Positions 51,562 through 53,499 of a DNA stretch of 64,000 bases are shown piece by piece (position 1 is the stretch's first letter; every line of letters begins with the position of its first letter). This DNA is from Nocardioides marmoribigeumensis (GTDB lineage: Bacteria > Actinomycetota > Actinomycetes > Propionibacteriales > Nocardioidaceae). The notes beneath the pieces are model-generated. The model worked only from the letters and a program-made list of their open reading frames with translations. It was not told the origin of the DNA and did no database searches. The position numbers were made by a program, and so were the translations under genes. The stretch is taken from positions 2,418,001 to 2,482,000 of the forward strand of contig NZ_JAVDYG010000001.1 in the NCBI RefSeq assembly GCF_031458325.1, read 5' to 3'.

Positions 51562-51591
51562 TTGCCAATTCTTGACAAGACACTTTGACTT
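51562..51591 (+). promoter_or_regulatory. TTGNCAA direct repeats upstream of the peptide gene
   Basis: TTGCCAA (51562-51568) and TTGACAA (51572-51578) are 10 bp apart, and TTGACTT (51585-51591) follows. TTGACA at 51572 can also serve as a -35 box, but no good -10 box was found at the right distance. The same motif occurs upstream of the facing regulator gene, so these may be operator sites. Confidence 0.4.
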
Positions 51592-51638
51592 CTCCTGAAC
51601 GCACGCCACCAGGGCGCGCGACGTCGGGAGGAAATCAC

Positions 51639-51752
51639 ATGTCGAAGCTCGTGCGCGCCATCGTCAGCGGTCTGTTCGTCGTCACCGCCGTCGCGGCTCC
51701 CGCGGTCCTCGGGACCGAGACCGCTCAGGCCAAGGACGTGTGGTGCTGCTGA
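51639..51752 (+). CDS. Small secreted peptide precursor, candidate signalling peptide
   Basis: 37 aa. Lys3 and Arg6 start a signal peptide, a hydrophobic core (AIVSGLFVVTAVAAPAVLG) covers residues 7-25, and a signal-peptidase site Ala29-Gln-Ala31 precedes the last six residues, KDVWCC. GGGAGGA 6-7 nt before the ATG is a strong ribosome-binding site, and a terminator upstream isolates it from purL. Its stop is 9 bp from the stop of the convergent HTH-TPR regulator. A short exported peptide beside an HTH-TPR protein is the arrangement of RRNPP quorum-sensing pairs (Rap-Phr, PlcR-PapR). No modification enzymes are near. Coding status rests on these features alone. Confidence 0.65.
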   Translation: MSKLVRAIVSGLFVVTAVAAPAVLGTETAQAKDVWCC

Positions 51753-51766
51753 GCCCCGGGCTCAGC
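51748..51766. repeat. Inverted repeat holding both stop codons of the peptide-regulator pair
   Basis: GCTGAGCCC-C-GGGCTCAGC, 9-bp perfect arms. The TGA of the peptide gene (51750-51752) and the TGA of the convergent regulator (51762-51764) occupy mirror positions. It could form a hairpin in both transcripts; no U-run follows. Confidence 0.7.
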
Positions 51767-53150
51767 GCTCACTGGTCACCGACACCGAGGACCGGAACGC
51801 CACGGCAGGAGTGGTGAGACCGGTCGAGGCCGCCGCACGCCGGTAGGCGTCGAGCGCCTCTGCGGTCGCCCCCGCCTGCTCCAGGCACATCGCGAGCTCG
51901 TACCAGACCTGGGCCGTGGCCCGGTCGGCGCCGGCAGCGCTCAGCAGCAGGGCCGCCTCGGCGCACAGGCTCTTCGCGCGCTCGGTGTCGCCCTCGAGCA
52001 CCGCCACCTGACCCAGGACGGCAGCCGCCTCGGCCTTGGCCAGGGGCATCTCGTCCGCCTCGGTGGCCCGTGCCTGCTCCGCGACCTCCGAGGCCGCGAG
52101 CAGGTCGCCGTCGAGCAGGTGCGCCCTCGCCAGGGCGGCGCGGACGTGACCGAGGTCGGCCGGCGCCGCGCTGGACTCCTGCAGCTCGGTCTCAGCCTGC
52201 CGCAGGGTCGAGAGGGCCTCGGCGACCGCCGGCGGGACGCTGCGCAGCTGCAGGATGCCGAGCTGGATGCGCAGCCGCGCCAGGTTGCGGGCGTCGCGAC
52301 CCTCGCCGAGCAGGCTGAGCGCGCGCTGGGCCTGGAAGACCGCGGAGTCGACGCGTCCGCGGTGCGACTCCACGATGCTGGCGTTCCAGTACGCCGAGGC
52401 ACGGGCGGTCGCCGACCCGAGCTGCTCGGCGGTCGCGACCGCCTCGCGGCACAGCCGGGCCGCCGTCGTCACGTCGCCGCTCTCGAAGTAGCACGAGGCG
52501 ACGGTCGCGACGAGCTGGATCGACTCGTCGGTGCCGTAGAGCGGTGTCTCGCGCAGGCGGGCCAGGGCGGCGTCGCCCTCGTCGATCGCGCGGTCGAGCT
52601 CGCCGCTCTCCCGCAGGCAGCGGCACAGCGCGATCGTGGCCCGCAGGGCGTGCGCCCCGTCGGCGGCCACGACCTGCTCGAGGACGGTCACGGCCTGGGC
52701 CAGCCGGCCGGTCGCCTCGAGGGCGCGGCCGTGCAGGAAGAGGGCGCGCTCGCGCAGGGGTGAGCCCTCCGGCAGGTGGCCCAGGGCGGTGCTCACCTGC
52801 GAGACCGCCTCCTGGGCCTCGCCCGTCTCGAGGGCGAGCTCGGCGTAGTCGAGGGTCAGGCGGAGCTCGGTGGTGGCCGGGTCGTCCTCGGGTGAGCGCA
52901 GGAGGACGTCCGGGGTCGTGCCCGTCCGCTCGGCCAGCGTCTGCAGCGCGCGGGCCGACGGCCGGCGCGCGCCGGCCTCGATGCGCGAGACGTAGGCGGT
53001 GGAGAGCTCGGGGCCGCCGGCGTCGGTCTGCGTGAGCCCGGCGGCCACGCGGGCCGCGCGCACGCGGCGCCCGAGGAGGGCGGGGTCGATCCCACGCAGT
53101 CGCTCGGCGAGGGTCGGCTCCCACCCGAGCAAGGGCTGCTCGGTCGTCAT
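51762..53150 (-). CDS. XRE-type HTH regulator with tetratricopeptide repeats, candidate peptide receptor
   Basis: 462 aa. Residues 27-85 are an XRE-like HTH (RRVRAARVAAGLTQTDAGG, ELSTAYVSRIEAGARRPSA, LQTLAERTGTTPDVLL). From about 95 to 450 helical TPR-like repeats follow, rich in Ala/Leu/Glu (for example ALETGEAQEAVSQVSTALG, ALEATGRLAQAVTVLEQVV, AYWNASIVESHRGRVDSAV). An N-terminal HTH with a C-terminal TPR solenoid is the build of RRNPP receptors such as PlcR and NprR; TPRs also occur in unrelated regulators. GGAGG lies 6 nt before ATG 53150. It converges on the secreted-peptide gene. Confidence 0.8.
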   Translation of the reverse strand: MTTEQPLLGWEPTLAERLRGIDPALLGRRVRAARVAAGLTQTDAGGPELSTAYVSRIEAGARRPSARALQTLAERTGTTPDVLLRSPEDDPATTELRLTLDYAELALETGEAQEAVSQVSTALGHLPEGSPLRERALFLHGRALEATGRLAQAVTVLEQVVAADGAHALRATIALCRCLRESGELDRAIDEGDAALARLRETPLYGTDESIQLVATVASCYFESGDVTTAARLCREAVATAEQLGSATARASAYWNASIVESHRGRVDSAVFQAQRALSLLGEGRDARNLARLRIQLGILQLRSVPPAVAEALSTLRQAETELQESSAAPADLGHVRAALARAHLLDGDLLAASEVAEQARATEADEMPLAKAEAAAVLGQVAVLEGDTERAKSLCAEAALLLSAAGADRATAQVWYELAMCLEQAGATAEALDAYRRAAASTGLTTPAVAFRSSVSVTSER

Positions 53151-53499
53151 GGCACACCTCCACGGGCGTTCGGACGGTCAGAAAGGCGGAGGTTCCCCTC
53201 CTCCGGTCAGACGATCTTGACGCAACGAGGTGACATTTGCCAGGAGACGTGTCAAATTAAGTCATGTCACCCCGTGGTGCCGCGCCACACCCCCTTGAGC
53301 GGCACCGACGACGACACGGCGACGGAGACCGCTCCGACCGACACCCCGGACGTTCGCGTTCCGGTCGGAGCGCAGTCGCCACCCTCTCCGCCACCCCCGG
53401 CGCCGTCCCCCGCGGCGCTGGCGGATCAGGGCTGCCCGGACAGGCTCGGGCGGGCAGCCCTGAGGGCGGGGCCGGGACGGCCCCGCACGCGGGTGGGGA
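53151..53499. other. 349-bp spacer with regulator promoter and three hairpins
   Basis: Apart from the motifs at 53217-53271, the spacer holds three perfect inverted repeats: 11 bp (53330-53340 with 53362-53372), 13 bp TCAGGGCTGCCCG (53426-53438 with 53451-53463) and 8 bp GCGGGGCC (53466-53473 with 53479-53486). The last two lie just after the convergently read end of the wall-protein gene and may terminate it, though U-runs are lacking. Two plus-strand frames here are Arg/Pro-rich and unsupported. Confidence 0.55.
53217..53271. promoter_or_regulatory. Upstream region of the HTH-TPR gene with dyads and TTGNCA motifs
   Basis: GGTGACAT (53229-53236) and ATGTCACC (53264-53271) form an 8-bp inverted repeat. 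Inside, TTTGCCA (53236-53242) and, on the other strand, TTTGACA (53250-53256) form a second, imperfect one. TTGACGCAA lies at 53217-53225. TTGNCA also occurs before the peptide gene. Confidence 0.45.

Follow-up and report, generated by a model that had tools for sequence, protein, structure and literature searches.

Described peptide receptors and the pair at this locus

In PapR of the Bacillus cereus group, a short pro-peptide that is exported, the C-terminal end is presumed to be the signal, and TPR grooves in general bind peptide tails. Rap has no HTH domain, and the arbitrium system (AimR-AimP) likewise joins a TPR-type receptor to a short peptide. Passages of PMC10075063 and PMC9765709 treat the RRNPP or RRNPPA family in Firmicutes, the group searched in PMC9765709. 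RRNPPA receptors carry 5–9 TPRs according to one section of PMC9765709, and duplicated or repeated pheromones are described for Rap-Phr in part of PMC11343458. The relevant portion of PMC10075063 presents the signals of Actinomycetota as typically small molecules and assigns linear oligopeptides to Bacillota, while an excerpt of PMC4748050 lists gamma-butyrolactones, as well as peptides that are cyclic or modified, as actinobacterial signals. Full-text searches of published open-access papers, judged by titles and abstract openings, found no description of actinobacterial WCC peptides or RRNPP-like pairs.

We analyzed a 64-kb stretch of DNA, referred to here as the window. It contains a 37-aa pro-peptide gene at 51639..51752 on the plus strand (product MSKLVRAIVSGLFVVTAVAAPAVLGTETAQAKDVWCC, C-terminus KDVWCC), preceded on the same strand by the ribosome-binding site GGGAGGA at 51626..51632, six bases 5′ of the ATG. 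Residues 1–31 (51639..51731, +) form a predicted Sec signal peptide with a basic N-terminus, a hydrophobic core and an A-x-A end, AQA. Residues 32–37 (51732..51749, +) are the predicted mature peptide KDVWCC, as suggested by the conservation and low pN/pS of this tail. A gap of 9 bp separates the gene from the convergent gene of a 462-aa HTH-TPR regulator, the proposed peptide receptor, at 51762..53150 on the minus strand. The sequence-only reading had described this 37-codon ORF with its strong ribosome-binding site and KDVWCC tail, and the convergent XRE HTH/TPR protein 9 bp away, as they were found here; the signal peptide it named also passed our simple filter, and the AQA cleavage site remains a prediction.

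The 37-aa ORF stood out among the 489 small ORFs (20–110 aa) of the window. It was the only one ending in CC, and only eight were signal-peptide-like with an ATG and a ribosome-binding site under a simple custom filter, so that it alone was both CC-ending and signal-peptide-like. A peptide profile scan of its own 4.44-Mb genome returned the window peptide only (E 1.7e-12; next best E 0.013). Peptides searched against Pfam, NCBIfam and PHROGs matched no family above the cut-off. On one side the pair is bordered by a purL-like gene with AIRS and FGAR-AT linker domains, and on the other by a gene for an Rv2525c-type glycoside-hydrolase-like protein with peptidoglycan-binding domains.

The regulator matched Pfam HTH_3 and several TPR families. 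The HTH_3 DNA-binding domain covers residues 30–83 (52902..53063, −), and the TPR solenoid, delimited from an AlphaFold2 model and the alignment, covers residues 91–442 (51825..52880, −). The model, built with 123 sequences (pLDDT 93, pTM 0.83), predicts an N-terminal domain of helices that includes the HTH, followed by nine antiparallel helix pairs. Six A-helix residues (E104, E145, R177, R180, W255 and N256), which we take to be groove-facing from the standard TPR register, were 93–100% conserved in 94 peptide-bearing rows of the alignment. The protein thus has, by Pfam and the predicted model, a solenoid of the 5–9 repeats, usually with an N-terminal HTH, by which RRNPPA receptors are recognized, and its TPR count lies within the range given in part of PMC9765709. 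Another RRNPPA feature, a small neighbouring gene whose product is an exported pro-peptide, is present as well, with export judged from the sequence. The pair lies outside the known Bacillota distribution of RRNPPA, which is a matter of distribution and not of mechanism.

The closest resemblance was to PlcR-PapR, in which an XRE-type HTH and TPR regulator is likewise found beside a short exported pro-peptide. In a PDB search, profile A3 of the regulator matched PlcR across both HTH and TPR (E 1.7e-14, 56.9 bits). This was the best match to a non-designed protein, ranking under three designed TPR proteins and only slightly above HTH-only XRE matches at approximately 48 bits. ComR was matched over the HTH in this search, and a single-sequence phmmer search of PDB with the regulator gave no match. 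Foldseek with the predicted model retrieved mostly generic TPR proteins, with Rap bound to its pheromone (4gyo) and PlcR bound to PapR and DNA (3u3w) at ranks 36–37. The predicted fold and the architecture fit RRNPP receptors; given the PlcR and ComR profile matches and the generic Foldseek list, homology beyond the HTH and TPR is not proven. The window pair differs from PlcR-PapR in belonging to Actinomycetota instead of Bacillota, in its convergent genes, in its WCC tail and in being known from sequence, and the PlcR chain has 293 residues compared to the 462 aa and nine TPR pairs of the regulator. NprR-NprX and Rap-Phr also combine a TPR receptor with an adjacent exported peptide, and the duplicated or repeated pheromones described in part of PMC11343458 for Rap-Phr recur in systems of the window type. 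However, no NCBIfam RRNPP model matched the regulator above its cut-off, and the regulator differs from Rap in having an HTH. AimR-AimP is similar in its TPR-type receptor and short peptide, but the NCBIfam AimR model scored only 9.7 bits (E 0.39) against the regulator, with a cut-off of 70, and a search of IMG/VR viral contigs, sensitive to close relatives only, gave no match to the window protein.

This viral-contig result for close relatives, together with low-coverage plasmid matches, disfavours carriage of the pair by phages or plasmids. Regulator matches occurred in 35 plasmid records, 33 of them from Streptomyces; none covered 80% of the query, and coverage was at most 63% among the best 20 of the 35. 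The annotation tables of three plasmid records named no such peptide. A ‘Bacteriophage sp.’ record of faecal origin that carries no annotation (MT836207.1, bases 2–1027) encodes a partial regulator, 48% identical over 73% of the query.

Linkage of peptide and regulator genes

Of 341 genomes from the window's family, Nocardioidaceae, 119 contained regulator homologs (E ≤ 1e-30), and 159 family regulator ORFs were collected among the matches listed. Duplicates and DNA-only matches (L001–L005, L010, L012 and L036) were omitted from the family locus set. Among the matches listed, 151 family regulators were followed by 500 bp or more of sequence, and at 103 of them a convergent signal-peptide-like ORF had CC as its very last residues; no codirectional downstream ORF of these 151 ended in this way. 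When the tail was defined as CC or WP in the last ten residues, an adjacent secreted mini-ORF was found at 112 of 146 scorable regulators among the matches listed, and none was found near the other 34; the remainder of the 159 were incomplete or short-flanked. The small ORF is thus retained beside most of the family's regulators, as the sequence-only reading had required of its proposal. That reading had also called convergent order unusual. In this family convergent order was the rule (98 of the 112 positives), and divergent upstream (10), codirectional upstream (5) and codirectional downstream (2) arrangements were few (categories overlap); among the distant homologs described below, divergent order was the rule.

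Loci without an exact CC end included variant tails, namely CCL at L108 and CCR or CCK at L144, L165, L168, L172 and L173. At L101, L120, L148, L150 and L152, which lack a convergent CC ORF, the peptide gene was divergent. Two or three peptide genes stood in a row at ten loci. At L160, L164 and L166, three or four tandem regulator ORFs were accompanied by a single CC peptide gene.

The tails were commoner beside the regulator than in other ORFs. With loose filtering, a CC end was seen in 118 of 246 convergent signal-peptide-like ORFs, compared to 21 of 1163 others, some of these 21 being peptides upstream of, or farther from, a regulator. Under a strict filter, the CC/WP tail was present in 128 of 153 regulator-adjacent signal-peptide-like ORFs and in 14 of 69 such ORFs at other positions of these loci. 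A shared neighbourhood was rejected as the cause of the linkage because the commonest flanking ORF (at least 90 aa, flanks of approximately 1.5 kb) occurred in just 21 of 105 loci. Flanking ORFs were mostly unshared, and thus the pair stays together while its surroundings change.

We also searched for the peptide independently of its neighbours with profile A2 (14 peptides) through 70 whole genomes. With at most 105 first-look candidates scored per genome, matches were obtained in 24 of 30 regulator-bearing genomes and in none of 40 genomes without a regulator match at E 1e-30; the profile rows were drawn from 8 of the 24 matched genomes. All 31 matches lay within approximately 700 bp of a regulator. 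Five of the six regulator-bearing genomes without an A2 match do have a regulator-adjacent CC peptide, and none was found in the sixth, G015.

The genome of the window carries a second, sister regulator copy (L035, G000:C1:2905952-2907274), approximately 50% identical, with branch support of 100/97. No CC peptide gene was found beside this copy, which may be a receptor without its own peptide, an orphan.

Beyond the family, profiles A1/A4 detected homologs in 61 of 396 genomes of a phylum sample (E 1e-15; many HTH-only) and in 103 of 394 genomes of a class sample (E 1e-30; including the window's family). Excluding the family and a Streptomyces-like group, a neighbouring signal-peptide-like ORF with a CC/WP tail was present at 28 of 43 scorable loci and absent at 15, the WP alternative having joined the criterion only after WP tails were seen in early distant loci. 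Divergent order was found in 27 of the 28 positives, and none of the 17 signal-peptide-like ORFs elsewhere in the 43 loci had a CC/WP tail. Repeats (L210, L212, L213, L236 and L239) were omitted from this count, and L180, L238, L242 and L258 were left unscored owing to a short flank or an incomplete N-terminal match; L242 and L258 have the tails NNWPG and GWWPH. Loci fetched later (L211–L259, Streptomyces-like excluded) gave the tail in 15 of 21 scored, 13 with CC, and 20 of these later loci (L240–L259) were hand-picked from the class-sample homolog list.

Distant tails included GGTWCC, DAWCC, DWPGMCC, NWPKCC, GGIWCC, APWPHCC, ANWPHH, TANWPKH and GFPWPK. Three distant divergent precursors contain a putative pheromone in tandem, IGNWPDPM three times in L204, GNWPDPM twice in L240 and VGGSWPT three times in L243. 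Well-supported branches of a tree of 57 chosen regulators, one row of which (L243) sits on a long branch, require a minimum of three changes for the distant WP group and five for the distant CC group. No CC/WP tail was found at the 27 Streptomyces-like loci scored, which represent 21 distinct regulators, six having been retrieved twice. Many Streptomyces-like loci (in L196–L202 and L211–L235) have a divergent secreted ORF with AANAGP or a similar sequence, often with a GTG start.

Coding constraint and the conserved tail

Substitutions in the peptide gene were compared among 25 non-overlapping pairs of relatives. The pN/pS ratio was 0.49 in frame and 1.05 and 1.83 in the two alternative frames, and within the frame it was lower in the last six codons (0.28) than in the signal peptide (0.45). 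By this comparison, the pattern indicates a translated gene under purifying selection. Broken frames in the relatives, which the sequence-only reading had named as evidence against its proposal, are at odds with these ratios.

The residue before CC was W in 72, G in 16 and Y in 7 of 112 distinct family peptides selected by their CC end, and position −6 was R or K in 54 of the 112. As CC served as the selection, its own weight was judged against background ORFs, that is, by the strict-filter comparison above (128/153 versus 14/69). Regulator positions showed no covariation above the 95% permutation threshold with the residue that precedes CC.

The terminal cysteine codons (51744-51749 and the homologous tails) were TGC TGC in 117 of 118 family peptides and TGT TGC in one, while regulators of the same loci used TGT for 44 of 389 cysteine codons. 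Nucleotide-level constraint on the terminal codons is therefore possible. Some of the divergent or distant loci also have TGT. The CC peptide of L157 contains an internal duplication, SLLGPHL-SLLGPHL-CC, giving a precursor with a repeated tail.

Promoter repeats, proposed circuit and alternatives

An operator-like inverted repeat, TTGCCA-N5-TGACAA, lies upstream of the peptide gene at 51562..51578, and the regulator gene is likewise preceded by an inverted repeat, TTGCCA-N7-TGTCAA, at 53237..53255. The 4.44-Mb genome contains a single perfect TTGNCA-N5-TGNCAA site, the one at the peptide promoter, and two perfect TTGNCA-N7-TGNCAA sites, one in front of the regulator gene and one near an alkB-like gene; two of the three perfect copies are thus at the promoters of these two genes. 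TTGCCA-N5-TGACAA also precedes seven further peptide genes among the 105 promoters examined. TTGNCA-type half-sites were found in 68 of the 105 peptide promoters (mean 21 in dinucleotide shuffles) and in 73 of 150 regulator promoters (mean 23).

We read the pair, with a probability of roughly 80%, as an RRNPP-like peptide-pheromone module in Actinomycetota whose peptide signal is read by the neighbouring regulator. The argument for signal reading comes from the adjacent exported precursor, the conserved tail, precursor duplication, repeated units, the HTH-TPR partner and the shared promoter repeat. In the proposed circuit, Sec would export the 37-aa pro-peptide, and a cut after AQA would free a short C-terminal peptide, here KDVWCC. 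An oligopeptide transporter would re-import the peptide; the genome contains three genes of the SBP_bac_5 family, that of oligopeptide-binding proteins. The imported peptide would sit in the groove formed by the nine TPRs, and its binding would alter DNA binding by the HTH at the TTGNCA-N5/7-TGNCAA repeats before both genes. As the repeats are at the promoters of both genes, we propose that the circuit regulates itself, and the module is, from its promoters, probably self-regulating. The linkage counts and the frame constraint support the RRNPP-like module suggested by the sequence-only reading; we infer processing, re-import and binding, as well as the sign of regulation and the output of the module.

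Alternatively, the peptide may act outside the cell as an effector, its CC reacting for instance with metals or thiols, with the regulator controlling the peptide gene and sensing something else through its TPR domain. Vicinal C-terminal cysteines are reactive and strongly conserved, and the promoter repeat is compatible with simple control of the peptide gene. However, some distant relatives have cysteine-free WPK, WPKH or WPDPM tails beside the same regulator family, which argues against pure cysteine chemistry, and the repeated tail of three precursors suits recognition over such chemistry, making this explanation unlikely in our view. Repeated units and duplicated precursor genes also suit a released signal better than intracellular sensing of the un-exported precursor, by which the pair would monitor the Sec export or thiol state of the producer and not its neighbours. 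Such sensing would agree with the binding of peptide tails by TPR grooves and with adjacent genes sharing a promoter repeat, and we consider it rather improbable.

A small hydrophobic ORF beside an XRE protein also recalls a toxin-antitoxin or addiction pair with a small membrane-active peptide as the toxin, and PADLOC and PHROGs gave matches, restricted to the HTH part. Here the exported tail is the most constrained segment (pN/pS 0.28 versus 0.45 in the signal peptide), the partner is a 462-aa TPR protein and a sister copy exists without a peptide in the same genome; these points make an addiction pair very improbable. GC-rich DNA contains many spurious ORFs, from which a CC-ending frame could arise by chance, but the conservation counts, the pN/pS ratios and the genome-wide search jointly leave this explanation a negligible probability.

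A broader form of the pheromone reading is a linear-peptide language throughout the phylum Actinomycetota, in which the HTH-TPR receptors of one family each have their own exported peptide with a CC and/or W-P core in its tail, such as NVWCC, WPxCC, NWPKH and the repeated GNWPDPM, and in which the message may be gated, through the C-terminal CC pair, by redox state or a vicinal disulfide. We hold this version tentatively, at somewhat below even odds. If the pheromone reading is correct, linear-peptide communication in Actinomycetota becomes directly testable with synthetic hexapeptides, as the signal can be read from the DNA. A pair of an unmodified-looking peptide and a TPR receptor would then be conserved across many actinobacterial families, and the C-terminal Cys-Cys would pose a new chemical question for linear pheromones, that of thiol, disulfide or metal.

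No wider regulon could be read from the promoter repeat in the genome, since four one-mismatch N5 sites were found compared to six for the reversed control pattern. The second perfect N7 site (G000:C1:3295610-3295628, L275:1501-1519) is located 60 bp 5′ of the alkB-like gene, which encodes an FA_desaturase domain and is followed by a rubredoxin ORF. This site is a lead, possibly a target of the regulator and possibly a chance occurrence.
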